Of a stretch of DNA of 64,000 nt, positions 4,452-17,187 are shown one piece after another. Location: NCBI GenBank assembly GCA_938048455.1, contig CALIUY010000012.1, positions 280,538 through 344,537 of the forward strand. Reading direction: 5' to 3'. Below the pieces are notes generated by a model. The model was not told the DNA's origin, made no database searches, and worked only from the letters and a program-made list of their open reading frames with translations. The DNA comes from an uncultured Desulfobacterales bacterium. GTDB taxonomy: Bacteria; Desulfobacterota; Desulfobacteria; Desulfobacterales; SpSt-501. Numbering within the stretch: position 1 is the first letter of the stretch; every line of letters begins with the position of its first letter. The position numbers and the translations under genes were made by a program.

Positions 4452-6146
4452 TCAAGCCGGATGGCTCCGACGAGGGCTGCTTCCTTCGGGTGCGCTTGGC
4501 GGCGGGGACTCGGACGGCGGGGTGCCGGAAAGACCGACTTTCATCTGCCGACGCGCGAGTTCTACGGCCCGGCGGTAGTCGGTCTGGATGCCCTCTTCGC
4601 CGAAGACCCCGGCGCAGTTCAGGTCTTTGAGGATGCGGTCCAGCCCGACCCCCTCGTTCACCACGAGGATGGCGCGGATCCCCTCGGCCTTGAGCTTTTC
4701 CACCATCTCGACCAGGGCGAAGGCGGCGGAGGTGTCCATGAAGGGGACATGATAGCAGTTGATGATGACGACCTTCGCCCCGAGGAGCCGGTTGATCTTG
4801 TCCTGCATCTGGGCGGTCATTCCGAAGAAAAAAGCGCCGCGCACGGCGATTACGCGGATGCCGTAATCGCTCTCTTCCTGAAGTTGCTTGCCCAGGTTGC
4901 GTTCCCAGTCGGCCGGAGCGACCTCGAACACGTTGACCTGGGTCTGCCGGGCCATCTGCCAGGTAAGCATCAGGGCGGCGAGCGCGATGCCGAGGGTGAC
5001 GGCGACGATCAGGTCGACAAACACCGTGACGGCGAACACGACGACCATGACCACGAGATCCGGACGGGGGGTTCGTTTCAGGAGTTTGAGCATGCGGTAG
5101 TCGAGAATGTCGACGCCGACCTTGATCAAAATTCCGGCGAGGGCCGCCATGGGGATGTGAGCCGTCGCTTTGCCGAGTCCCAGCAGGACGGCGAGCAGGA
5201 ACAGCGCGTGGATCATCCCGGAGATTCGGGTCCGGCCGCCGGCCTTGATGTTGACCACGGTGCGCATGGTCGCCCCCGCGCCGGGGAGCCCGCCGAGCAG
5301 GCCGGCGACCAGGTTGCCGAACCCCTGGCCGATGAGTTCGCGGTTGGAGTCGTGGCGCTCGCGTGTCATCGAGTCGGCCACAAGCGAGGTGAGCAGGGTG
5401 TCGATGCTCCCCAGGGCCGCCAGCGCAATCGCCATGGCGAGGATCCGGGGCAGGTGCTCCGCCGACAGCGCCGGAACTCGGAGGTCCGGCAGCCCGGCGG
5501 GGATCTCGCCGATGGTTTTCACGGGAAGGGCGAGCCCCGCCGCGAGCAGGCTGACACTGAGAAGCGCGATGAGCGGTGAGGGGACGACCCGCGTGATGCG
5601 CGCCGGCGTGAGAAACACGATCAGCAGCGTGACCCCGCCGAGGAGCAGGCTTTCGAGTTGCATCCCGGCAAGGGCCCGGGGCAGGCCGAGGAGCGCAAGC
5701 AAGGGGGAACCGACACTTTCCTGGCCGAGGAGAGGATGGATTTGCAGCAGGAGAATGATCACCCCGATTCCGCTCATGAATCCCGAAATCACCGGGTAGG
5801 GGATGTAGCGCACGAAACCGCCGATCCGGATCCCGCCGAAGACGATCTGCAGCGCCCCGGCGAGCATCACGACCGTGAACCCCAGGGAGAGATCCGCCGG
5901 AAAGGCGGCCACGGAGGCGGCGAAGACCACGGTCATGGGGCCGGTCGGACCGGAAACCTGGCAGGGGGTACCGCCGAACAGGGCGGCGAAGAACCCGAGG
6001 CCGATCGCGCCGTAAAGGCCGGCGATCGGCCCGGCGCCGCTCGCCGCGCCGAAGGCGAGCGCCAGCGGCAGAGCGACGACCCCCGCGGTGAGACCCCCGA
6101 AGAGATCTCCGCGCAGGAGGGAGAGCGAGTATCGAGACGGTTTCAT
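4452..6146 (-). CDS. SulP-family anion transporter with STAS domain
   Basis: The protein has 564 aa. It is a SLC26/SulP transporter with an N-terminal membrane domain of 10-14 helices (residues about 10-400) and a cytoplasmic STAS domain (about 415-530). Family features include LALAFGAASGAGPIAGLYGAI near residue 27 and PTGPMTVVFAAS near 67. The conserved GFGNLVAGLLGGLPGAGATMRTVVN (residues about 273-297) is the SulP signature region, and the STAS loop MDTSAA is present. Bacterial members move sulfate, bicarbonate, C4-dicarboxylates or other anions, and the substrate cannot be assigned from sequence. It forms a short operon with the NosL-like gene and is divergent from the regulator at 6400. 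Confidence 0.9.
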   Translation of the reverse strand: MKPSRYSLSLLRGDLFGGLTAGVVALPLALAFGAASGAGPIAGLYGAIGLGFFAALFGGTPCQVSGPTGPMTVVFAASVAAFPADLSLGFTVVMLAGALQIVFGGIRIGGFVRYIPYPVISGFMSGIGVIILLLQIHPLLGQESVGSPLLALLGLPRALAGMQLESLLLGGVTLLIVFLTPARITRVVPSPLIALLSVSLLAAGLALPVKTIGEIPAGLPDLRVPALSAEHLPRILAMAIALAALGSIDTLLTSLVADSMTRERHDSNRELIGQGFGNLVAGLLGGLPGAGATMRTVVNIKAGGRTRISGMIHALFLLAVLLGLGKATAHIPMAALAGILIKVGVDILDYRMLKLLKRTPRPDLVVMVVVFAVTVFVDLIVAVTLGIALAALMLTWQMARQTQVNVFEVAPADWERNLGKQLQEESDYGIRVIAVRGAFFFGMTAQMQDKINRLLGAKVVIINCYHVPFMDTSAAFALVEMVEKLKAEGIRAILVVNEGVGLDRILKDLNCAGVFGEEGIQTDYRRAVELARRQMKVGLSGTPPSESPPPSAPEGSSPRRSHPA

Positions 6147-6399
6147 CCAAGCAATCCTAACCTGTCATTCAAGAGCTGCCATTCAAGTTCCCAGGGGCGC
6201 ATCTTCTAAAGCTCGGTCATGAAAAAGGGCCGCTGCATAACATGCTCTCGGCTCACTGTCAAAAAAGATACCCCCGCATCAGACGCAAACCGCAGTTGCG
6301 AACGTCGCCAGTGGCAGAAAACAAAAAATTTGTTTGACATCAAAAAATTTGTTCGATAGTAGGCATGGTAAACGCTGTCGTTCCCTTCAGGGAGGTTCC
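6147..6399. promoter_or_regulatory. Divergent intergenic region with direct-repeat operator candidate
   Basis: The spacer separates sulP (minus) from the YheO-type regulator (plus). It contains two direct repeats CAAAAAATTTGTTYGA at 6322-6337 and 6341-6356, spaced 19 bp start to start, so on roughly the same face of the helix. The first repeat overlaps a TTGACA -35 box (6334-6339) pointing towards the regulator; a weak -10 (GATAGT, 6355-6360) lies 15 bp beyond. The layout suggests that the repeats are operator half-sites for autoregulation by the downstream regulator. Binding itself is inference. Confidence 0.6.
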
Positions 6400-7062
6400 A
6401 TGGACGAGCGGGAGTGGATTCTCCGGACCTTGGCCCGGATCGCCGATGCGCTCGCCCGGACCTTCCCGCGCAACCTCGAAGTCGTCGTCCACGATCTCTC
6501 CGATCCACGGCACTCCATCTGCCACATCGCCGGTGAGGTGACCCACCGCAAGGTCGGCGGTCCATTGACCGACCTCGTCGTGCGGGCCCTGCGGCGCGAG
6601 GGCCGGGAAATCGGTGACCGTTACAACTATCGCACCACCACCCGCGACGGCCGCGTGCTCAAATCGAGCACGGTCTTCGTCCGCAACCGCCAAGGAGAGG
6701 TCGTCGCCGCCTTCTGCGTCAACTTCGACACCACCGATTATCGCAACGCCGCCCAAGCCCTCGAGGTTTTCACGACCGCAGCGGAGAGTTTCAACGGCGA
6801 GGAGAAAACCGAAACCTTCGCCACCTCGATCACCGAGACGATCGAGGCGCTCTTCGAACAGACGGTCGCCCGGATCGGCAAGCAGCCCCCCTTCATGTCC
6901 TCCACCGAGAGGCTGGAGCTTCTGCGCGCGCTCGAGGAAAGCGGGGTCTTCCAGATCAAGGGCGCGGTCGACCAGGTGGCGCTGCGGATGGGGATCTCCA
7001 AATACACGGTCTACGGCTATCTGAAAAAAATCCGCCTGGAGCAGGAGCTGCCGCAGCTCTGA
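6400..7062 (+). CDS. YheO/DauR-type PAS-HTH transcriptional regulator
   Basis: The protein has 220 aa. An N-terminal YheO-like PAS domain occupies residues about 8-125, with the hallmark NLEVVVHDLSDPRHSI near 22-37 and a GRVLKSSTVFVRNRQGEVVAAFCVNFD sheet region. A C-terminal HTH_22-type helix-turn-helix (about 165-215) includes GAVDQVALRMGISKYTVYGYLKKI. Homologues include DauR, which controls D-arginine catabolism in Pseudomonas. The ATG at 6400 has GGGAGG upstream; an ORF extending further upstream would remove the promoter repeats. RidA and a D-amino-acid PLP enzyme follow directly, fitting a D-amino-acid-responsive regulator. The effector is unknown. Confidence 0.88.
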   Translation: MDEREWILRTLARIADALARTFPRNLEVVVHDLSDPRHSICHIAGEVTHRKVGGPLTDLVVRALRREGREIGDRYNYRTTTRDGRVLKSSTVFVRNRQGEVVAAFCVNFDTTDYRNAAQALEVFTTAAESFNGEEKTETFATSITETIEALFEQTVARIGKQPPFMSSTERLELLRALEESGVFQIKGAVDQVALRMGISKYTVYGYLKKIRLEQELPQL

Positions 7063-7093
7063 GCACCAGAGCGCCGCCCAGAAAGGAAAAACG

Positions 7094-7507
7094 ATGCGTT
7101 CCACTTCTTCCCCGCGACAGGTTGCAACCGCCGACGCCCCCGCCGCGATCGGTCCCTATTCCCAGGGGGTAGCCGCCGGGGGGTTTCTGTTCGTCTCCGG
7201 TCAGCTTCCGCTCGACCCCGAAACCGGAAATCCGGTTGCCGGCGAAATCGAAGCGCGGGTCGATCGGTGCCTCAAAAATTTGACCGCCGTCGCCCGCGCG
7301 GCGGGAACGGATCTTTCGCGGGCGGTCAAACTGACCGTCTTTCTGACCGATCTTTCGCTTTTCGCACGGGTGAACGCGGTGTACGCCCGACATTTTCCCG
7401 GGATGTGCCCCGCCCGCTCCGCGGTCCAGGTGGCCGCTCTGCCCAAAGGAGTGGACATCGAAATCGAAGCCATCATCCAACTTGGATCTGAAGGAGGTCC
7501 TGCATGA
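7094..7507 (+). CDS. RidA-family enamine/imine deaminase
   Basis: The protein has 137 aa, typical for RidA (YjgF/YER057c/UK114). RidA hydrolyses reactive 2-aminoacrylate and related enamines released by PLP enzymes, giving keto acids and ammonia. The conserved IGPYSQG (residues 19-25), the VSGQLPLDP strand and catalytic Arg108 in CPARSAVQVAALP are all present, as is the terminal VDIEIEAI motif. Its stop overlaps the ATG of the PLP enzyme at 7504, so the two are coupled. A PLP deaminase that generates aminoacrylate is the natural partner. It sits 31 bp after the regulator, probably in one transcript. Confidence 0.95.
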   Translation: MRSTSSPRQVATADAPAAIGPYSQGVAAGGFLFVSGQLPLDPETGNPVAGEIEARVDRCLKNLTAVARAAGTDLSRAVKLTVFLTDLSLFARVNAVYARHFPGMCPARSAVQVAALPKGVDIEIEAIIQLGSEGGPA

Positions 7508-8520
7508 ATCTCGCCCGATTCCCCCGTCGCCGCTATACGCCCGGGCCGACGCCGATCGAGTTTTTGCCCCGCTTCAGCGCCGCCGTCGGCGGACCCGAGA
7601 TCTACATCAAGCGCGACGATCTGCTCGGTCTCACGGCCGGGGGCAACAAGACCCGCAAGCTCGAATTTCTCGTGGCCGACGCGCTCGCTCAGGGGGCCGA
7701 CACCCTGATCACCTGCGGGGCGGTGCAGTCCAACCATTGCCGGCTGACGCTCGCCGCGGCGGTGAAGGAAGGGCTCCGCTGCCGGTTGGTCCTCGAGGAG
7801 CGCGTTCCGGGAAGCTACAACCCCGAGGCCTCGGGCAACAATTTCCTCTTCCGCCTGCTCGGGGTCGAGAAGATCGAGGTGGTCCCCGGCGGCAGCGACA
7901 CGATGGCGGCCATGCAGAAAGTCGCCGAGGAGCTCGGCCGGGAAGGCAGGAAAGGATACATCATCCCCGGCGGCGGCTCGAACCCCATCGGGGCGACCGG
8001 CTACGTCGCCTGCGCCCAGGAGATCCAGGAGCAGCTCTTCGCGCTGGGACTGGCGATCGACCGCGTCGTCGTCGCCTCGGGCAGCGCCGGGACCCACGCC
8101 GGACTGGTCACGGGGTTTATCGGCGGCAACCTGGACATCCCCGTCGTGGGTGTAGGGGTAAGCCGCGAGCCGGCGGAGCAGGAGCCGCTCGTCTACGATC
8201 TTGCCTGCCGGACCGCGGAGCGCCTCAAGGTGCGCGGCGGCATCCCGCGGGAGGCGGTCCGTTGTGTCGGCGGCTACTGGCAGCCGAAGTACTCGGTTCC
8301 CAACCGCCGTATGGTCGAGGCCGTGCAGCTGCTCGCTCGCACCGAGGGGATCCTTCTTGACCCGGTATACACCGGGAAAGCGATGGCCGGCCTGATCGGC
8401 CTGAGCCGTGAGGGACAACTGCGCAAGGGCGAAAAAGTGCTCTTCGTCCACACCGGAGGCTCGCCCGGCCTTTATGCCTACATCCGGCCTCTTCTCGGCC
8501 TCGAGCCGGTCGCGGAGTAA
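7504..8520 (+). CDS. dcyD: PLP-dependent D-cysteine desulfhydrase / ACC-deaminase family enzyme
   Basis: The protein has 338 aa, fold type II PLP enzyme. The cofactor lysine is expected at Lys49 in GGNKTRKLEFL. The substrate-site QSNHCR (residues 75-80), with Ser76, Asn77 and His78, matches D-cysteine desulfhydrases and ACC deaminases. GSAGTHAGLVTG (about 198-209) provides the phosphate-binding loop. Known members convert D-cysteine to pyruvate, H2S and ammonia, or beta-chloro-D-alanine and D-serine-like substrates. The linked RidA fits release of aminoacrylate. The family symbol is given by similarity; ACC deaminase or another D-amino-acid lyase activity cannot be excluded. Confidence 0.85.
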   Translation: MNLARFPRRRYTPGPTPIEFLPRFSAAVGGPEIYIKRDDLLGLTAGGNKTRKLEFLVADALAQGADTLITCGAVQSNHCRLTLAAAVKEGLRCRLVLEERVPGSYNPEASGNNFLFRLLGVEKIEVVPGGSDTMAAMQKVAEELGREGRKGYIIPGGGSNPIGATGYVACAQEIQEQLFALGLAIDRVVVASGSAGTHAGLVTGFIGGNLDIPVVGVGVSREPAEQEPLVYDLACRTAERLKVRGGIPREAVRCVGGYWQPKYSVPNRRMVEAVQLLARTEGILLDPVYTGKAMAGLIGLSREGQLRKGEKVLFVHTGGSPGLYAYIRPLLGLEPVAE

Positions 8521-8600
8521 GGAAAAAGTTCGCATGGGGTTCAATGTGGAAGGTCGTGCTTCCTGGCAACAAAATTGATGGTTTAAGGAAGGAGAAAACG

Positions 8601-9611
8601 ATGAAAAAGCGGGGCCCAAAAATCATTCACATCCTCATTTCTTTGGCCATCCTGTTTGGGATGGGCCTATGGAACTCGCCGGCAGCGGCGAAAGAAATCG
8701 TGATTAAACTTGCCCATCCGAACGTCCCGCAGCATCCGATGGGAGAAGGCTATGAGCTGTTTAAAGCGGATCTTGAAAAGCGATCGGGGGGTGTCTTTCG
8801 AGTAGATATTTATGACAGCTCGAAATATGGAAACTTTGATGCGGTGGTCCAGGGGCTCCAGATGGGTGTTTTGCAGATGGGCTCAGATGCCTGCAACAAT
8901 TTTTCGGTGTTTAACCCGCAATTGATGTTCTTGGATATGCCATTTATTATTCCCAGCTATGAGGCCGCAGATCGGATTACCGATGGCCCGATCGGGAAAA
9001 AACTGGCCTCCGCACTGGAAAAAAACGGAATTTTGGGATTGGGGTATATCGATATTGGTTTTCGGCAGGTCTTCTCCAGCCGCCCGATCCGGAAGTTGGA
9101 AGATGCTAAGGGTCTTAAAATTCGAGCGACCCACTCCAAGGCTCATATCGCCATTCTGAAAGCCCTCGGGATGAATCCAACGCCGGTCGCTTGGGGCGAG
9201 GTGTATACGGCGTTGCAGCAAAAGACAGTGGATGCCATAGATATTGATTTGAATTTGGCATGGTTTAATAAATTCCCGGAAATAACCAAATATGTAACTC
9301 TCACGCGCAGTTTTTACAGCGGGCATTTGGTTTTGGTATCCAAACCCTTCTGGGAAAAGCTTTCGCCGCAAGAGCAAACATGGATTAATGAATCTTTTGC
9401 TGTCATGCAGAAATTTGAACGCAACAAAATCAGAAGCAACGAATCGATGATCATCCAAAAAATCAAAGAAACAGGAGGGGAAGTCATCGAATTGTCGCCG
9501 GAAGAACGTGCCCGGTGGATTAAGGCTACCGAAGAGGTGGCGCCAGCGTTTGCCTACGCCGTTCCTCCCGAACTGATCGAGGAAATGCGGAAAACCGTTC
9601 AAGAAAAATGA
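8601..9611 (+). CDS. TRAP transporter solute-binding protein DctP family
   Basis: The protein has 336 aa with a cleavable signal peptide (residues 1-33, ending SPAAAKE). It is the periplasmic receptor of a tripartite ATP-independent transporter. The fold is recognisable from HPMGEGYELFKADLEKRSGG, the central KGLKIRATHSKAHIAILKALGMNPTPVAWGEVYTALQQKTVDAID and the arginine of KIRAT, which usually pairs with a substrate carboxylate. GGAAGGAG (8586-8593) precedes the ATG. Base use is noticeably more AT-rich than in the enzyme genes upstream. Ligand unknown; the neighbouring deaminase genes suggest an amino acid or keto acid. Confidence 0.93.
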   Translation: MKKRGPKIIHILISLAILFGMGLWNSPAAAKEIVIKLAHPNVPQHPMGEGYELFKADLEKRSGGVFRVDIYDSSKYGNFDAVVQGLQMGVLQMGSDACNNFSVFNPQLMFLDMPFIIPSYEAADRITDGPIGKKLASALEKNGILGLGYIDIGFRQVFSSRPIRKLEDAKGLKIRATHSKAHIAILKALGMNPTPVAWGEVYTALQQKTVDAIDIDLNLAWFNKFPEITKYVTLTRSFYSGHLVLVSKPFWEKLSPQEQTWINESFAVMQKFERNKIRSNESMIIQKIKETGGEVIELSPEERARWIKATEEVAPAFAYAVPPELIEEMRKTVQEK

Positions 9612-9682
9612 AACCTAATGGATAAATAACGACAAGGGGCAGGCAATAAGAGATATTGTCTGCCCCCTTCTTAAGAGATCTT
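9612..9682 (+). promoter_or_regulatory. Strong intercistronic hairpin between dctP and dctQ
   Basis: A 13-bp stem with one G:U pair, GGGGCAGGCAATA (9636-9648) and TATTGTCTGCCCC (9654-9666), closes a 5-nt loop. No U-run follows, so it is not a normal terminator. By analogy with other importer operons, such a hairpin would stabilise the upstream receptor mRNA and reduce read-through to the membrane genes. Confidence 0.6.
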
Positions 9683-10192
9683 ATGAAACCCTTCTATCAT
9701 TTTTTGAATAGATTTGAGGAAGTTTTTTCGTCGCTCGCTCTTTCGGGAATGGCCGCAATTATCATATTGCAAGTTTTCCAAAGATATATATTGCAAGACT
9801 CTTTTGATTGGCCCGAAGAGTTGGCAAGATATCTTTTTGTTTTTTCCGTTTATATCGGCGCAAGTTATGCGGCTGCGGAAAGGCGCCATCTTGAGGTTAC
9901 AGTGATTCGAACGATGTTCAGCGGAAAAAAGAGCACAATGATCGCGGTCATTGCTTACCTCATAACATTATTTTTTTGCGGATTGATGTTTGTTTGGGGG
10001 CTGAAGATGGTTGTTTTCGTTAAAGAATCCAATCAGCTTGCGCCGGCGCTTCAATTCCCGATGTATTTCGCTTATATTTGTTTGCCGCTCGGCTTCTTGC
10101 TTATGGCGGTGCGCAAAACAATTATCATTAAGAATTTGATTGTGCAAGATTTCAAGCGCTCAAACCGTGCGGACGACAAGGTTAGAATTTAG
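9683..10192 (+). CDS. TRAP transporter small permease DctQ family
   Basis: The protein has 169 aa with four membrane helices, the standard DctQ topology. The conserved W-PEELARY motif is visible as FDWPEELARYLFVFSVYIGASYA near residues 41-60, followed by the RRHLEV segment. The small subunit pairs with the large DctM subunit and recruits the loaded receptor. The ATG at 9683 is chosen; an in-frame TTG at 9656 lies within the upstream hairpin and is unlikely. The ribosome site is weak, consistent with lower expression than the receptor gene. Confidence 0.9.
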   Translation: MKPFYHFLNRFEEVFSSLALSGMAAIIILQVFQRYILQDSFDWPEELARYLFVFSVYIGASYAAAERRHLEVTVIRTMFSGKKSTMIAVIAYLITLFFCGLMFVWGLKMVVFVKESNQLAPALQFPMYFAYICLPLGFLLMAVRKTIIIKNLIVQDFKRSNRADDKVRI

Positions 10193-10428
10193 ATTGTTAA
10201 TCATTTACAATATTTTTAAAGCGCTAGAAAAATCAACGAAATAATCGCTTTTTCGATCATCAAAACAATTTGATAATGCTAGATTGAACTTTAGAAAAAT
10301 TTCTGCGTTAGGCATGAAAAAAATCGATAAACCGAACTGCCCCGCCCCTTGAAGCGGCGATAATGGCGTGTGAGGCCGATCAGAAATGCATTGCGACGGA
10401 GATCAATGATTCAATAAAAGGATAAGCA
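10193..10428. other. AT-rich spacer inside the TRAP operon
   Basis: 236 bp without a supported gene separate dctQ and dctM, which are normally adjacent or fused. The stretch is AT-rich (for example 10195-10300). It has no clear terminator or transposon end. A fresh promoter for dctM or the debris of a lost gene would both be compatible. Confidence 0.5.
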
Positions 10429-11700
10429 ATGGATGCCCCAATTCTCATTGTCGCCATTTTGCTGCCGCTATTGCTCATTTTGAGCGTCCCGATAGGAGTT
10501 GCGATCGGGTTGAGCGTCGCTCTTGCGGTCGTTGCGGCAGGACTTCCGGTACAATTCCTGATGCAAAAGATGTTTTTGTCGTTGGATGCCTTTCCATTAC
10601 TCGCCGTCCCCTTTTTCATCATGGCGGGCGAAATCATGCAAAAAGGCAGCATGGCCGGTTCCTTGCTGAAGGTCTCGCGTTGTCTGATCGGTCATATCAC
10701 CGGCGGGCTTGCGCACGTATCGGTTCTGACCTGCATGTTTTACGGCGCGTTGAGCGGATCGGCACCCGCTACCGTTGCCGCCGTGGGAGGGATCATGATT
10801 CCCTCCATGGAGAAAGAGGGGTTTTCCAAATCCTTCTCCACCGCGACCAATGTCGCCGCCGGCTGCTTAGGGGTGATGATCCCCCCCAGTGTTCCTCTCA
10901 TCATTTACGGGACGACGGCCAATGTTTCCGTTGGCGATTTGTTTATTGCAGGAATCGTCCCCGGGATTTTTATTGGTATCGTATTGATGATCGTGTGTTA
11001 TTTTCTGTCAAAATATCACGGATTCAATACTAAGAGCAACAAGGCTTCTATCAAGGAGACACTCTCGGCCCTCTACGAGGCGAAATATTCTTTATTGGTT
11101 CCCATCATCGTACTCGGAGGAATCTACGGGGGAATCACAACGCCGACGGAAGCTGGTGCCATCGCGGTGACTTATGCTCTATTTATCGAAGGCGTTGTTT
11201 TAAAAAATATAACAAAACAGAAACTATGGCTTATTTTGCGCGGAACCACAATTACCAATGCCACCATCTTCTTGGTGGTCGCCACTGCAACGGCTTTGGG
11301 TCAGATTCTGCTTATCTATAATGTTCCCAACGCCCTGGTGAAAGCGCTGGCCGGATTGGCCAATAATCCCAACCTGCTTCTTCTTGCCATCATCATCATG
11401 CTTCTTGTTCTAGGAACGTTCATGGACGCGTTGGCGAACATTCTTATTTTGACACCTCTTTTGCAGCCCTTGCTCATGCAGGCCGGTATCAACATGACGC
11501 ATTTCGGAATTATCATGATCGCATCGGCTTCCGTCGGATTTCTTACGCCTCCGGTGGGTGTGAATCTCTTTGTCGGCTGTGGAATCAGCGGGATCAGCAT
11601 CGAAAAATTGAGTTATGCGGTACTGCCCTTCGTTTTCGCCATGTCGGCGGCGATTCTTGTTCTTGCCTACGTTCCTCAAATCGCTCTTTGCCTGCTGTAA
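10429..11700 (+). CDS. TRAP transporter large permease DctM family
   Basis: The protein has 423 aa with about 12 membrane helices. It forms the ion-coupled translocation channel of the TRAP system. Family motifs include FPLLAVPFFIMAGEIM near residue 54, GALSGSAPATVAAVGGIMIPSM near 104, AAGCLGVMIPPSVPLIIYG near 143 and GGIYGGITTPTEAGAIAV near 226. It ends with the conserved FLTPPVGVNLFV. Length is typical for an unfused DctM. It is separated from dctQ by 236 bp, which is unusual, and is followed 16 bp later by an unrecognised gene probably in the same transcript. Confidence 0.95.
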   Translation: MDAPILIVAILLPLLLILSVPIGVAIGLSVALAVVAAGLPVQFLMQKMFLSLDAFPLLAVPFFIMAGEIMQKGSMAGSLLKVSRCLIGHITGGLAHVSVLTCMFYGALSGSAPATVAAVGGIMIPSMEKEGFSKSFSTATNVAAGCLGVMIPPSVPLIIYGTTANVSVGDLFIAGIVPGIFIGIVLMIVCYFLSKYHGFNTKSNKASIKETLSALYEAKYSLLVPIIVLGGIYGGITTPTEAGAIAVTYALFIEGVVLKNITKQKLWLILRGTTITNATIFLVVATATALGQILLIYNVPNALVKALAGLANNPNLLLLAIIIMLLVLGTFMDALANILILTPLLQPLLMQAGINMTHFGIIMIASASVGFLTPPVGVNLFVGCGISGISIEKLSYAVLPFVFAMSAAILVLAYVPQIALCLL

Positions 11701-11716
11701 ATGACCGGGAGATGAA

Positions 11717-12994
11717 ATGCAAATCGCATTTTCAAAGATAAAGCAAGCAAAAGCCGGCCTTGCGGGGCATATCGGGGTCAGCCATGCAAACAGCCACTCA
11801 GGCTTTGTCCAAGAGGATGGGGCGGGGTTTGCCGTTGTCACCCGCCTTATGAACCAAGCCGCACGGTTGGATCTGCGAATTTCTAAAATTCGTGTAAACC
11901 TCATCGAAAGCGTTGTAGAAGTTTGTTTATACAGTGGAGGAAAAGGAGTTGCCTTTGCGCGCCATGGAATCACACCTGCCGAAAAAGCATTGATGAACTC
12001 GGCTGTGGGAAAAAGCGCCCTTTGCCCGCAAACGCTGGCTACCGAGATCTTCGGCAGGGTCATCGGTCAAGGGGTGTCGGAGGTTCCTTCCGCCTTGATC
12101 ACCGCCGTATCCAAGGCGGTTGTCCATAGCTTTCTCACGAACTATCCCGATCGGTTCCTCTACGGTACCGAAGATACTCCGCTCAGTGTGGGTTGCACCA
12201 TCGGCACCCTTTTACGAATCGGGGACATGCCTGTTGCAACGATGATCACCATCAACGCCGGAGAGGGGGGGATCGGACCCAATGAAGACAGTGAAGGAAA
12301 TGTTCCCATTGGCAATAAAAGAAAATTGATGGAGCAGCTGGGGTTGTGTTGCCTTCCCACAATCATTGTTGAATCCAAAGCATTCGTTCCGGCGTGGAAG
12401 GATTTAATTCAAGAAACGACCCTGGTGGTCAGAGCCAATGATCACTACGATAACACCGTTGTTCAAGAATGCCTGGTCAAATCGGCGCGATCTCTAAACT
12501 TTCCTGTTTTTACTCCGAAAAACCCTTACCCGCGGATTAAAGGATCGCTGTTCCACGTCCAAAAAAATATAGCGAATCAACTTGTTGCACTTGGAAGAGG
12601 CCTTGCACGCGCAAAAACCGCCGAAGAAAAAAACCGTATCGCTGCACAACTTTCTATGCTCATAAAAACCGATTTGGGTGGCATTACATTCATGAGCAAT
12701 AAGATCAACGAAATTTTTGATAACGGTGGTCTTTTGCCTGGCACAGCGGCCGTGCTTTCGTCTGCGGTAACCAGCGATTATGCAGCGATATATAAAATTC
12801 CCGTCTTAACCCCAAAAGACATCACCATGTACGCAAAAACCATTGTTGGGGCATTCAAACTTTTAGAAACCAGATTGGACGAAGCGAAGAATCAGATGGT
12901 AAAGAAATCGATATCCAATCGAAAAATCAAAGAGATCGAAAAAGGACTCATCGCAAAGGAAATAAACAATTGCCCAAATTTAAAAGCCCGATGA
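11717..12994 (+). CDS. Unrecognised 425-aa protein encoded after the TRAP transporter
   Basis: I do not recognise the family. The protein looks soluble, without signal peptide or membrane helices. Conspicuous segments are GHIGVSHANSHSGFVQEDGAGF (residues about 17-38), AFARHGITPAEKAL (about 77-90), EIFGRVIGQGVSEVPSALI (about 110-128) and NAGEGGIGPNEDSEGN (about 179-194). The last is an acidic, glycine-rich, possibly ligand- or metal-binding loop. Further segments are PTIIVESKAFVP and GGITFMSN. The His-rich start and acidic loop give it the look of an enzyme. It starts 16 bp after dctM with GGGAG upstream, so it may act on the imported substrate. Base use is AT-rich like the TRAP genes. Function not assigned. 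Confidence 0.8.
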   Translation: MQIAFSKIKQAKAGLAGHIGVSHANSHSGFVQEDGAGFAVVTRLMNQAARLDLRISKIRVNLIESVVEVCLYSGGKGVAFARHGITPAEKALMNSAVGKSALCPQTLATEIFGRVIGQGVSEVPSALITAVSKAVVHSFLTNYPDRFLYGTEDTPLSVGCTIGTLLRIGDMPVATMITINAGEGGIGPNEDSEGNVPIGNKRKLMEQLGLCCLPTIIVESKAFVPAWKDLIQETTLVVRANDHYDNTVVQECLVKSARSLNFPVFTPKNPYPRIKGSLFHVQKNIANQLVALGRGLARAKTAEEKNRIAAQLSMLIKTDLGGITFMSNKINEIFDNGGLLPGTAAVLSSAVTSDYAAIYKIPVLTPKDITMYAKTIVGAFKLLETRLDEAKNQMVKKSISNRKIKEIEKGLIAKEINNCPNLKAR

Positions 12995-13107
12995 CATCAA
13001 TACTTTCTTGCAAACATGGGCGCCATGGAGTAAAAGGCAGGTCGGTCGGTGACATCAAAGCTTGTAACCGTCCGCATTGATGCTCCCCCAACCTTCGGAG
13101 GTGGCCC

Positions 13108-14397
13108 ATGGCAGAGGAAACGGTGCGTAAAGCGGGCTTCATGTCATGGTATTTTCAGTCCAACCTTCTTGTGCGGATCCTGATCGGCCTCATCCTGGGG
13201 GCGATCGTGGGTCTGGCTGCGGGCTCCTCGATTTTGTGGGTGAAGCCCTTCGGAGATATTTTCATCCGTCTGCTGCGCATGATCGTGGTCCCGGTCATCT
13301 TCTTTTCGCTGGTCGTGGGGGCGGCCAGTCTCAGCCCTTCCAAGCTCGGCCGGGTAGGAGTCAAGATCTTCATCTATTACATGGCGACCACAGTCCTGGC
13401 CGTGGCCTTCGGACTGCTCTCGGCCAACCTCTTCCGGCCCGGGATGGGCCTTGACCTAAGCGCCGGCCAGGCGGCGGGCAAGGCGCTCACCCAGCCCAAG
13501 GTGGTCGACACGCTGATCAACATCATCCCCGTAAACCCCATCGAATCCCTCGCCAAGGGGGATGTCCTGCCGATCATTTTCTTCGCCATCATCTTCGGCA
13601 TCTCCCTTTCCTTTCTGGCCCAGAGCCGCGATGAGCGCCTGAGCGGCGGGGCGGCGGCCGTCCTCCAGTTTTTCGACGGCGCCGCCGAGGCGATGTACTC
13701 GATTGTGCGCGGGGTGATGCAATACGCCCCGATCGGCGTCTTCGCCTTGATCGCCGTCGTCTTCGCCCAGCAGGGATCCAAGGCCCTCGGGCCGCTCGGC
13801 ATGGTGACGCTCACGGTTTATGTCGGGCTGGTTGCACATCTGCTGATCACCTACGGGATTGCGCTCAAGATCTTCGGTCTGAAATTCGGCCGCTTCCTTT
13901 CGGGAGCCAAGGAAGCCATGCTTACGGCCTTCGTGACCCGCAGCTCGAGTGCCACGCTGCCGATCACGCTGCGCAACTCGGAGGAAAACCTGGGCGTTCC
14001 CCGCAGCATCGGCTCTTTCACGCTGCCGCTCGGGGCGACGATCAACATGGACGGGACCGCCATCTACCAGGGCGTCTGCGCGCTCTTTGTGGCCTTCGCG
14101 ATCGGACAGCCGCTGGATTTCGGCGCTCAGATGACGATCATCATCACGGCGACGCTCGCCTCGATCGGCGCGGCCGGGGTTCCCGGCGCGGGCGTCATCA
14201 TGCTGCTCATGGTATTGAACTCGGTCGGCCTGGAAGTGAAGGAGGGCTCGGCAATCGCCATGGCCTACGCCATGATCCTCGGCATCGACGCCATTCTCGA
14301 CATGGGCCGCACCTGTCTCAACATCACCGGCGATCTCGCCGGCACCTCGATCGTGGCCAAGACCGAAAAGACGATCGACCTGGAGAAATGGGCCTGA
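13108..14397 (+). CDS. Dicarboxylate/amino-acid:cation symporter (DAACS/SDF family)
   Basis: The protein has 429 aa with eight helices plus two re-entrant hairpins. It is a secondary transporter of the GltP/DctA family, coupling uptake of glutamate, aspartate or C4-dicarboxylates to Na+ or H+. Signature elements are the serine-rich TRSSSATLPITL (residues about 272-283, hairpin 1), LPLGATINMDGTAIYQ (about 307-322) and GVPGAGVIMLLMVL (about 358-371). The helix-8 DMGRTCLNITGD contains the substrate-contacting Asp and Arg. GGAGGTGGCC precedes the ATG. Codon use returns to the GC-rich norm of the chromosome, unlike the preceding TRAP block. A terminator follows. Confidence 0.94.
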   Translation: MAEETVRKAGFMSWYFQSNLLVRILIGLILGAIVGLAAGSSILWVKPFGDIFIRLLRMIVVPVIFFSLVVGAASLSPSKLGRVGVKIFIYYMATTVLAVAFGLLSANLFRPGMGLDLSAGQAAGKALTQPKVVDTLINIIPVNPIESLAKGDVLPIIFFAIIFGISLSFLAQSRDERLSGGAAAVLQFFDGAAEAMYSIVRGVMQYAPIGVFALIAVVFAQQGSKALGPLGMVTLTVYVGLVAHLLITYGIALKIFGLKFGRFLSGAKEAMLTAFVTRSSSATLPITLRNSEENLGVPRSIGSFTLPLGATINMDGTAIYQGVCALFVAFAIGQPLDFGAQMTIIITATLASIGAAGVPGAGVIMLLMVLNSVGLEVKEGSAIAMAYAMILGIDAILDMGRTCLNITGDLAGTSIVAKTEKTIDLEKWA

Positions 14398-14429
14398 AGG
14401 CCGATTTGGTGAAAGAAACCTGAAGTCCC

Positions 14430-14461
14430 GGGCCGGCGGGGGTTCCCTCCGGCCCTTTTTC
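14430..14461 (+). terminator. Intrinsic terminator after the symporter gene
   Basis: The stem GGGCCGG (14430-14436) pairs with CCGGCCC (14449-14455), extended internally by GG/CC pairs, and is followed by five T residues. It lies 33 bp after the stop of the symporter gene and separates it from the CLC gene. Confidence 0.8.
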
Positions 14462-14566
14462 GTCGGCGCGCTCTTGGAAGACGGGCGTTGCGGCGGTTTG
14501 AGTCTCCCCCATGATCCGCACTCTTGGAGGATAGAGCGTTTTCCCACGAGGAAAGGGAGCCGCGCG

Positions 14567-16399
14567 GTGTTCATGGCCGAAGGGTCGCATCCGCCCCAAG
14601 ACGCATCCTCACATGGCCTTGCCCGGGCAGGCCGCTGGGCCTTTTACACCGTCGCCATCGGGCTGATCGCAGGCGCGGCCGCCGTCATTTTCTTCTTTTT
14701 GTGCCAGGCCGGCATGCGTTTTCTCTTGGACGCTCTGGCGGGTTTTCGGCCGCCTGCGGCGACGGGAGAGGCCGTGCTCTTCCCGCCGGGGGACGGGCGG
14801 TTTTCCCGCTGGGTGCTCCTTTTCCTGCCGGCGGCGGGCGGGCTTGCGAGCGGCTTTCTTGTGACTCGCTTCTGCCCTGCGGCGGCGGGCGGGGGCAACG
14901 ACGCCGCCATCCGCTCCTACCACGAAAGCGACGGACGCATCCCGGCCCGTGTGCCGCTGGTCAAAACCATCGCCACGGCGATATTGATCCCCAGCGGTGG
15001 CTCCGGCGGACGGGAAGGGCCCATCGCCCAGATCGGCGCAGGTCTGGGATCGCTTCTTGCCGGAAGACTGAATCTTACGCCCCGGGAGCGGCGCATTCTG
15101 ATGGCGGCTGGCATCGCCGCCGGCATCGGAAGCATTTTTCGTGCCCCCTTGGCGGGGGCGCTCTTTGCCGCCGAATTTCTCTACCGCGATCCGGAGTTCG
15201 AGTTTGAAGTGATCATCCCCGGGGGCATGGCATCGATCGTCGCCTACTGCCTCTTCTGCTCCGTCTACGGTTGGGAGCCGCTGCTCGCTGCGCCGGCCTT
15301 TTCCTTTCGCAACCCGCTGGAGCTCGGCCCGTATTTTCTGCTCGCCCTCTTCGTCACGGGAGGGGCCGTCGTCTTCGTCCGCCTCTACCACGGCATCGCC
15401 GCCGGCTTCCGTCGGCTGCGGGTTTGCCCGGTGCTCAAGCCCGCCATCGGAGGGATGCTCACGGGAACGATCGGTTTTTTCCTGCCGCACACGCTCTCCT
15501 TCGGTTATGGTTACGCGGAGCAGGCGATCGCCGGAGCCCTGCCGCTCTCCATCCTCATCACGCTCGCCGCCGGGAAGATGCTCACGACCTCCTTTTCCAT
15601 CGGCTCGGGGGGGAGCGGGGGACTCTTCGGCCCGTCGCTCGTGATCGGCGCCGCGCTGGGAGCAATCGCCGGGGAGCTCTTTCACCGGATGCTTCCGGCG
15701 GTCGTCTCCTCCCCGGGCGCCTTCGCGCTGGTGGGCATGGCGGGCTTCGTCGCCGCGGTCGCCAACACGCCGATCTCGATCATTCTGTTCGTAAGCGAGA
15801 TGACCGGCTCCTACCGTCTGCTCATCCCCTGCCTGCTGGTCTGCTCGGTTGCCTACCTCGCGGCACGTCGCTACAGCCTCTTTCCCGCCCAGGTCCGCCG
15901 CCGCCTCGATTCCCCGGCGCATGCCGGCGAGCTTTTCGTGGACGTCCTGCAGGCGATCCGTGTACGGGACATTCTCGAGCGGGTGCGTCCCGTCGAAGTC
16001 ATCCCGGAGCGTATGCGCTTCGTCGACTTCAAGGCGCTTTTCGCCCGGACCGAACAGCATTATTTTCCCGTGCGGGACGAAGAGGGAAAGCTCAAGGGCA
16101 TTTTTTCGATCAACGACGTGCGCGCCGTCCTCTTTTCCCCGGAAATCGAGCCGCTGGTGGTGATGAAAGACATCGCCACCGCCGACATCATTGCGACCAC
16201 GCCTTCGGAAGATCTGGGAACCGTGCTCCGCAAATTCACGATCAAAAACATCGACAGCCTCCCGGTCGTCTCCGAGGAGGACTCCGGGAAGCTGATCGGC
16301 ATGCTCTCGCGCCGTGATGTGATCGCCTGCTACAACCGCAGGGTCGAAGAATGGAAAAGCGCGCAAGAGCGGGCATCCGCAAAAGAAAGGCGGCCATGA
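14567..16399 (+). CDS. CLC-family chloride channel/antiporter with tandem CBS domains
   Basis: The protein has 610 aa. A CLC membrane domain (residues about 15-440) is followed by a cytoplasmic pair of CBS domains (about 465-600). The anion-site motifs are present: GGSGGREGPIAQIGAG (about 143-158) with the gating glutamate of GREGP, and GSGGSGGLFGPSLVIG (about 346-361). The gating Glu is characteristic of both H+/Cl- exchangers and many channels. CBS domains usually bind adenine nucleotides and regulate gating. I prefer the GTG at 14567, 7 bp after GGGAG; an in-frame ATG at 14573 is the alternative. The stop overlaps the next gene as ATGA. Confidence 0.92.
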   Translation: MFMAEGSHPPQDASSHGLARAGRWAFYTVAIGLIAGAAAVIFFFLCQAGMRFLLDALAGFRPPAATGEAVLFPPGDGRFSRWVLLFLPAAGGLASGFLVTRFCPAAAGGGNDAAIRSYHESDGRIPARVPLVKTIATAILIPSGGSGGREGPIAQIGAGLGSLLAGRLNLTPRERRILMAAGIAAGIGSIFRAPLAGALFAAEFLYRDPEFEFEVIIPGGMASIVAYCLFCSVYGWEPLLAAPAFSFRNPLELGPYFLLALFVTGGAVVFVRLYHGIAAGFRRLRVCPVLKPAIGGMLTGTIGFFLPHTLSFGYGYAEQAIAGALPLSILITLAAGKMLTTSFSIGSGGSGGLFGPSLVIGAALGAIAGELFHRMLPAVVSSPGAFALVGMAGFVAAVANTPISIILFVSEMTGSYRLLIPCLLVCSVAYLAARRYSLFPAQVRRRLDSPAHAGELFVDVLQAIRVRDILERVRPVEVIPERMRFVDFKALFARTEQHYFPVRDEEGKLKGIFSINDVRAVLFSPEIEPLVVMKDIATADIIATTPSEDLGTVLRKFTIKNIDSLPVVSEEDSGKLIGMLSRRDVIACYNRRVEEWKSAQERASAKERRP

Positions 16400-17187
16400 A
16401 CGACGCAGGAGGAATCGCCGCTCTGCGGCGGCTGGCCGAGGAGACCGTCGCCGCCGAACCGGCCCGCAGCGGAGCCCAACCCTGGTGGCGAAAGCCCTTG
16501 GTCGCCGCGGCTCCCGCCGACGAACGCTTTGCGGCGTTGCCGGCGATGGCGGCTTCCGACCATCTCCTGCCTCGGGATCTGCTTGCGACCGCGCGCTCGG
16601 TGGTCGTTTTTTTCATCCCCTTCCAAAACAAACTCGTGCGTGAAAACCGGGCCGGTGAACGCCCCAGCGCGGACTGGGGTCTCTCCTATGTGCAGACAAA
16701 CGCGCTGATCGAGCATTTGGCCCAAAGGCTTGCGGCGTGGCTCGAGGAACGGGGCTTCCGCTGCGCCCTGACCCCGGCGACGCACAATTTCGACGAAGAG
16801 CGCCTGGTCGCCCGTTGGTCGCACAAGCACCTGGGTCATCTGGTGAAGCTGGGGCGTTTCGGGACGCATCGGCTGCTCATTACGCCGGCCGGCTGCGCGG
16901 GAAGGCTGGGAAGCTTCGTTACGGAGGCCGAACTCGGGGAGCAGCCCCTTCTCCTCACCGCAGAAGCCTGCCTTCTCCGGGCGGGAAAACGCTGCGGCCA
17001 ATGCATTGCGGCCTGTCCCGTCACCGCCCTCACGCGCGAGGGGTTCGACCGCCGGCGTTGCTGGGAGCGGCTCAAGGAAAACCGTGCGGTGGTCTCCGAG
17101 TTCGCCGCACTGCCCGCGACCACCCATGTCTGCGGCAAATGCGCCGCGCTCATGCCCTGCAGCTTCCGCAACCCTCTCGTGAAATAG
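16396..17187 (+). CDS. QueG-like 4Fe-4S protein
   Basis: The protein has 263 aa. The C-terminal half has a ferredoxin-like cluster motif CGQCIAACPVTAL (residues about 211-223) and a second cysteine group CGKCAALMPC near the end. The N-terminal part resembles the catalytic half of epoxyqueuosine reductase-type proteins (ARSVVVFFIPF, DWGLSYVQTNALIEHLA, FGTHRLLITPAGCAGRLGSFV). It is shorter than true QueG, which is about 350 aa and carries a HEAT-like tail, so it is better treated as a paralogue of unknown substrate. The start lies inside the CLC stop. The TAG stop at 17185-17187 coincides with the first bases of a palindromic repeat element. Confidence 0.8.
   Translation: MNDAGGIAALRRLAEETVAAEPARSGAQPWWRKPLVAAAPADERFAALPAMAASDHLLPRDLLATARSVVVFFIPFQNKLVRENRAGERPSADWGLSYVQTNALIEHLAQRLAAWLEERGFRCALTPATHNFDEERLVARWSHKHLGHLVKLGRFGTHRLLITPAGCAGRLGSFVTEAELGEQPLLLTAEACLLRAGKRCGQCIAACPVTALTREGFDRRRCWERLKENRAVVSEFAALPATTHVCGKCAALMPCSFRNPLVK

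Follow-up and report, generated by a model that had tools for sequence, protein, structure and literature searches.

Which reaction is carried out by the protein encoded between a TRAP transporter and an acidic amino acid symporter in a presumed cysteate operon of an uncultured Desulfobacterales bacterium? Cysteate is an organosulfonate, the sulfonate analogue of aspartate (its carboxylate analogue), and its degradation releases sulfite for reduction to sulfide by sulfite-respiring anaerobes. A first reading of the window, by which we mean the whole stretch of 64,000 nucleotides analysed here, had singled out this 425-residue protein as the best candidate there for an undescribed enzyme, linked to a TRAP transporter. 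According to the available text of PMC11382572, CuyB racemises cysteate and D-cysteate is the preferred substrate of CuyA; the same text notes that in Ruegeria pomeroyi the cysteate racemase has no known gene, which leaves room for alternative racemases. We propose, at a probability of about 0.45, that the 425-residue protein is a racemase of a new family acting on cysteate/aspartate-like acids.

Organization of the operon

The operon comprises, in order, a YheO-type regulator, ridA, cuyA, dctP, dctQ, dctM, the gene for the 425-residue protein and a GltP-type symporter (Table 1). An open reading frame starting with ATG occupies exactly the predicted position on the forward strand, and the 16-bp spacing reported for dctM was reproduced by measurement, dctM ending at 11700. 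The ribosome-binding-like motif GGGAG lies directly 5' of the start codon and stop codons interrupt the reverse strand of the gene, which occurs as a single copy in its genome. The symporter gene follows 113 bp downstream and is named at the family level only, as its GltP score of 269.8 bits lies below the model cut-off of 638. The same genome encodes DsrA over cut-off. The window operon resembles the cuy pathway of cysteate dissimilation in that it combines a transporter with RidA and an over-cut-off CuyA, whereas the 425-residue protein is not among the components named in the available text of PMC11382572.

Table 1. Positions of the operon genes and of the conserved segments of the 425-residue protein within the window.
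Feature	Position	Strand	Evidence
YheO-type regulator (PAS_6 + HTH_22), probably the operon regulator; start possibly further in	6334–7062	+	
ridA, Rid family enamine/imine hydrolase	7094–7507	+	TIGR00004, 159.6 bits (cut-off 106.25)
cuyA, D-cysteate sulfo-lyase (PLP)	7504–8520	+	NF052482, 519.5 bits (cut-off 450)
dctP, TRAP solute-binding protein	8544–9611	+	NF037995 and TIGR00787 over cut-off
dctQ, putative TRAP small permease	9656–10192	+	Position and hydrophobicity
dctM, TRAP large permease	10429–11700	+	TIGR00786, 396.5 bits (cut-off 268.45)
Family gene, 425 aa, proposed cysteate/aspartate racemase	11717–12994	+	ORF, 47-locus family, invariants, AlphaFold2 model
Conserved loop after strand 13–20, proposed active-site loop 1	11765–11827 (codons 17–37)	+	Invariants, model secondary structure
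Conserved loop after strand 171–180, proposed active-site loop 2	12254–12301 (codons 180–195)	+	Invariants, model secondary structure
Invariant E219, R239, D245	12371–12451 (codons 219–245)	+	36-member alignment
D319 nearly invariant; G321, G322, M326 invariant	12671–12697 (codons 319–327)	+	36-member alignment
GltP/DctA-type acidic amino acid/dicarboxylate symporter	13108–14397	+	NCBIfam GltP, 269.8 bits

Two further features of the region were recorded. An AT-rich gap of 236 bp (10193–10428), unusual in a tight operon, separates dctQ from dctM, and a 619-bp gap occupies the same place in the relative L004. Beyond the symporter, a long open reading frame (14474–16399) presumably encodes a CBS-domain chloride channel of the ClC type, judging by the look of its sequence. 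An Rfam scan of positions 5500–16500 gave no match at the gathering score, and promoter and terminator scans stayed near the shuffled expectation.

A family undescribed in the libraries searched

Searches with the 425-residue protein gave no match in Pfam and NCBIfam (E 5), PHROGs (E 0.1) and PDB sequences (E 10), in agreement with the original prediction that no family could be named for it; none of these libraries yielded a confident match to a characterised family. Profile searches of the PDB with two family alignments (A1 and A2) returned nothing credible (best E 0.18), and phage records gave no match. A genome scan with the single sequence found no relative, and the three-sequence alignment A1 used as query recovered 39 family loci in the genome collection. 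With a further member on plasmid pZRK30-3 of Fusobacteria bacterium ZRK30 and additional loci in genomes of the window's phylum, the family set comprises 47 distinct loci after removal of duplicates, the window included (two loci, L006 and L007, are short contigs). It occurs in Desulfobacterota, Bacillota, Fusobacteriota, Synergistota, Sutterellaceae and a single archaeon of the Desulfurococcaceae, and its distribution is sparse, with members in 2 of 395 genomes of the phylum, 7 of 241 of the class and 4 of 146 of the order. The available portions of five papers (PMC11382572, PMC10507020, PMC6278857, PMC9594981 and PMC12421959), a set outside which the primary CuyB paper falls, contain no description of the family. 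The gene thus belongs to a family undescribed in the libraries searched. Of the earlier description as an undescribed enzyme linked to transport, the lack of a known family and the transporter neighbours are observed, and the enzymatic role is what we infer.

Genomic neighbourhoods of the family

At 38 of the 47 loci the same-strand gene directly upstream encodes a transporter, either dctM (17), a GltP/DctA-type symporter (17) or a TauE-type exporter (4); at the other loci it encodes an Amidohydro_3 protein (4), CuyA (1) or another product (3), or is missing (1). The proposed TRAP linkage is therefore real, with dctM directly upstream at 17 of 47 loci, but not exclusive, and widens to importers and exporters in general. 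CuyA is encoded at 19 of the 47 loci, across Desulfobacterota, Bacillota and Fusobacteriota; NCBIfam scoring covered nine of these 19, the window among them, and all nine proteins exceeded the CuyA cut-off. Four loci from Fusobacteria/Tissierellia combine CuyA with a TauE-type exporter. A type I asparaginase is encoded immediately downstream at 11 loci, and an amino acid permease precedes the Amidohydro_3 gene at three of the four loci where the latter is directly upstream.

In a tree of 44 members, CuyA linkage requires three changes, at least one of them forced by well-supported branches (in this run L051 was labelled as lacking CuyA, although it carries CuyA), and asparaginase linkage likewise requires three, at least two of them forced. 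These changes suggest that the genomic contexts have probably switched during the history of the family, a pattern that fits an enzyme acting on related substrates.

These contexts bear on alternatives to a racemase. A lyase, or another enzyme breaking C–N or C–S bonds directly in aspartate or cysteate, would fit the same operons, and at the asparaginase loci an ammonia-lyase activity would be of use in aspartate catabolism; we consider it very unlikely, because such an enzyme would be redundant at the 19 of 47 loci where CuyA already breaks cysteate bonds. The main rival is a metal-dependent hydrolase: a deacylase, amidase or dipeptidase would release cysteate or aspartate from N-acyl or peptide conjugates that the neighbouring transporter imports. 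Hydrolase genes are indeed common near family members, but the loci with an asparaginase, Amidohydro_3 or M20 gene already own such an enzyme; this and the evidence set out below lead us to regard the hydrolase as unlikely.

Another alternative broadens the substrates, such that the family would consist of epimerases or isomerases of C3/C4 acids whose alpha stereocentre adjoins a carboxylate, with sulfolactate or malate among the substrates and not amino acids alone. It draws on a single Desulfovibrionaceae bin (L029:1138–2618), in which genes for a 104-residue and a 390-residue protein precede the TRAP genes and the family member. The larger protein belongs to the galactarate/altronate dehydratase family, and the pair has what we take to be the layout of the sulfolactate sulfo-lyase SuyA/SuyB. 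That assignment follows from family and size only, the locus is one of 47 and sits on a long branch, and amino acid partners dominate at the other loci, all of which make this broader specificity quite unlikely.

Some other neighbourhoods are of interest in themselves. In L032, AbgT and M20 genes lie near the family member, and a gene for a 472-residue protein without NCBIfam or Pfam match (L032:4568–5986) follows them and has a 4-bp overlap with the beginning of the family member. A Mailhella bin (L013:5342–7254) encodes the family member followed by pyrroline-5-carboxylate reductase (ProC) and a 364-residue protein without Pfam match. On pZRK30-3 of ZRK30 (L003:5126–11188), a gene for a cyclic-nucleotide-binding-type regulator lies upstream of the family member, which is divergent from a (2S)-3-sulfopropanediol dehydratase cluster (NF048009) with a TauE/SafE exporter, another sulfonate setting.

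Most invariant polar residues lie in loops after predicted strands

Conservation mapping, a check suggested by the original prediction, was carried out on 36 full-length members (the window protein and 35 others at 33–68% identity to it) and identified 31 invariant columns, with His, Asp and Glu among the invariant residues. Loop 1 contributes G17, H18, G20, H23, S26, Q32, D34 and G37, and loop 2 contributes N180, G185, P188, E190, D191, E193, G194 and N195. The two patterned segments noted earlier are present, at about residues 21–38 and 180–195. Their reading as parts of an active site gains from the finding that most invariant polar residues fall there, after strands 13–20 and 171–180 of a confident model, and we propose them as such. 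According to the alignment and model, conserved loops follow strands 13–20, 171–180 and 235–239, and together they may form one site. A conserved cysteine is absent from the 36 members, the best column holding Cys in 12 of them.

A predicted nucleoside-phosphorylase-I-like core

AlphaFold2 modelled the window protein (pLDDT 93.9, pTM 0.93) and the asparaginase-linked relative L026 (pLDDT 95.1, pTM 0.94) with high scores. VIA-align placed an MTA/SAH nucleosidase (MTAN) first for both, with Z 12.2 over 177 aligned residues (3.1 rmsd) for the window protein and Z 12.7 over 169 residues (3.0 rmsd) for L026, at about 10% identity, and nucleoside phosphorylases occupy the matches listed for either model. 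Foldseek retrieved nothing for the window model at E 0.001, its best match being the M42 aminopeptidase 2gre (E 0.044); for L026 it returned the uridine phosphorylase 3qpb_C (E 2.9e-5), followed by the PNP 3mb8 (6.7e-4) and then 2gre (1e-3). The structure-prediction search, likewise suggested at the outset, thus found a distant fold relative in nucleoside phosphorylase-I (NP-I), and no characterised family emerged by sequence.

We interpret the models as a predicted NP-I-like core with large insertions, the nearest fold to the family and a resemblance visible only in structure. The NP-I superfamily (MTAN, PNP, uridine phosphorylase; PF01048) and the family would have in common a core fold of about 170 residues, but they differ in the approximately 10% identity, the large insertions and the unrelated operon context, and the family has no profile match to PF01048. 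Profile–profile alignment with hhalign gave E 0.21 against a PNP set made up mostly of class II phosphorylases, no better than unrelated controls, and no signal against M42, CuyB or seven operon families. The family had no Pfam or NCBIfam match to PLP enzyme families, and a viral fold library returned weak matches only (best E 0.05). Three of the 36 members matched DapF (TIGR00652) weakly, at E 0.008 for the best; this was treated as chance and dropped, as L026 alone gave no family at E 0.02 and neither the fold matches nor the absence of a conserved cysteine, in which the family differs from DapF, was supportive.

Taken at face value, the closest fold would argue for a nucleoside phosphorylase- or nucleosidase-like enzyme that cleaves the N-glycosidic bond of a glycosylated amino acid (Z 12.7 to MTAN and E 2.9e-5 to 3qpb_C). 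The family shows no PNP_UDP_1 profile signal, however, and no recurring sugar or nucleotide genes were recognised in its neighbourhoods, so that we regard this activity as most improbable.

The models also bear on the metal-dependent hydrolase. Their likeness to M42 aminopeptidases (2gre in both models) speaks in its favour, as does the possibility of metal binding through the invariant His, Asp and Glu residues. The likeness is weak, and the family has no profile match to M42 (PF05343) or to any other peptidase, the ligand motifs of M42/M20 metallopeptidases were not identified in it, and nucleoside phosphorylases rank above peptidases for L026 in Foldseek and in the listed VIA-align matches of both models.

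Comparison with the cysteate racemase CuyB

Enzymes of the Asp/Glu racemase superfamily use two catalytic cysteines. CuyB belongs to this superfamily (NCBIfam model NF052483, cut-off 190 bits), and no match to its model was found in the 36 family members at E 0.1, although the same model detects CuyB elsewhere. CuyB and the 425-residue protein have in common the proposed reaction and a place beside cuyA, CuyB being absent near most cuyA genes that adjoin a family gene. CuyB spans about 240 residues against about 400 in the family and shows neither a profile match nor a profile–profile signal with it. The two catalytic cysteines have no counterpart among the family members.

CuyA exceeds its cut-off in 15 of 395 phylum genomes, and both of the phylum genomes with a family member are among these 15. 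For comparison we used 14 over-cut-off CuyA loci without a family gene (L088–L101) and scanned all frames with the CuyB model, so that the counts include the CuyB genes of L007 and L094. CuyB was found within about 2.5 kb of CuyA at 9 of these 14 loci, as opposed to 2 of the 19 CuyA loci with a family gene (Fisher p 0.0023), in a small sample whose loci are not independent and in which most family loci and the comparison loci were drawn from different collections. Eight of the nine CuyB genes are adjacent to CuyA; the nine include L098 (CuyB about 2.4 kb from CuyA) and L092 (CuyB cut by the contig end), and L102 and L103 (CuyA below cut-off) as well as L106 and L108 (found through CuyB) were left out. 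With L106 and L108 added, CuyB occurs at 11 of 16 family-free CuyA loci (p 0.00055). L034 has a weaker CuyB-like gene at a distance of about 7 kb, which was excluded from the counts, and the remaining 5 of the 14 loci have neither CuyB nor a family gene. Both arrangements occur in the genomes G499 and G567, each with one CuyA locus that carries the family gene and another that carries CuyB.

CuyB nevertheless lies in the same operon as the family gene in L052 and L007, and it exceeds the cut-off elsewhere in four family-bearing genomes (G000, the window's own, G420, G499 and G567). We therefore reject a strict replacement of CuyB by the family gene. In the L007 and L052 operons CuyB would already cover racemisation, which favours the metal-dependent hydrolase, but a hydrolase leaves unexplained why CuyB is so rare beside CuyA where a family gene is present.

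Proposed function of the 425-residue protein

We favour a racemase, as it provides the simplest fit to the transport genes, to CuyA with RidA, to asparaginase with GltP and to the CuyB pattern. The TRAP transporter would import cysteate, the 425-residue protein would interconvert L- and D-cysteate, and CuyA would cleave the D form, giving sulfite, ammonia and pyruvate, with RidA hydrolysing the 2-aminoacrylate formed on the way to pyruvate; the sulfite would then enter the Dsr pathway. Family members next to an asparaginase and a GltP-type symporter may act likewise on aspartate. The putative mechanism would proceed without PLP and without two-cysteine chemistry on the nucleoside-phosphorylase-like core, invariant His, Asp, Glu and Lys residues in the loops after strands 13–20, 171–180 and 235–239 providing two acid/base groups or metal ligands. 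The reaction, its presumed substrates and the candidate catalytic residues are all deduced from the data above.

Counting for a racemase are the partners in the window operon, CuyA at 19 of 47 loci, the anti-association with CuyB, GltP upstream (17/47) and asparaginase downstream (11/47), dsrA in the window's genome and the absence of a conserved cysteine. Counting against it are the coexistence with CuyB in two operons and four genomes, the five CuyA loci with neither gene, and the M42 likeness together with the hydrolase neighbours (asparaginase 11/47, Amidohydro_3 4/47, one M20), which fit a hydrolase equally well; moreover, we know of no racemase with the nucleoside phosphorylase-I fold. 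The contexts of L013 (ProC), L029 (SuyAB-like pair) and L032 (AbgT, M20) are not specific to an amino acid racemase.

If correct, the racemase assignment would define a catalytically new family that the searched copies of Pfam and NCBIfam lack and that connects sulfonate respiration with the use of D-aspartate among anaerobes. More tentatively, it may represent a third class of amino acid racemases, PLP-free and cysteine-free and built on a nucleoside-phosphorylase-like core, which would extend from Desulfobacterota to an archaeon and serve both cysteate respiration and D-aspartate/asparagine use.

Other racemase genes came to light in the survey. Contig 21 of the window's genome encodes a CuyB-type racemase over cut-off (L104:7477–8274) with no CuyA within the surrounding 16 kb, and a genome of the same genus (L105) also carries a CuyB-type racemase. 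In L103 (3017–5218), the gene right after a CuyA-like gene belongs to the alanine racemase family (TIGR00492 over cut-off) and may supply a further racemase in the same role.
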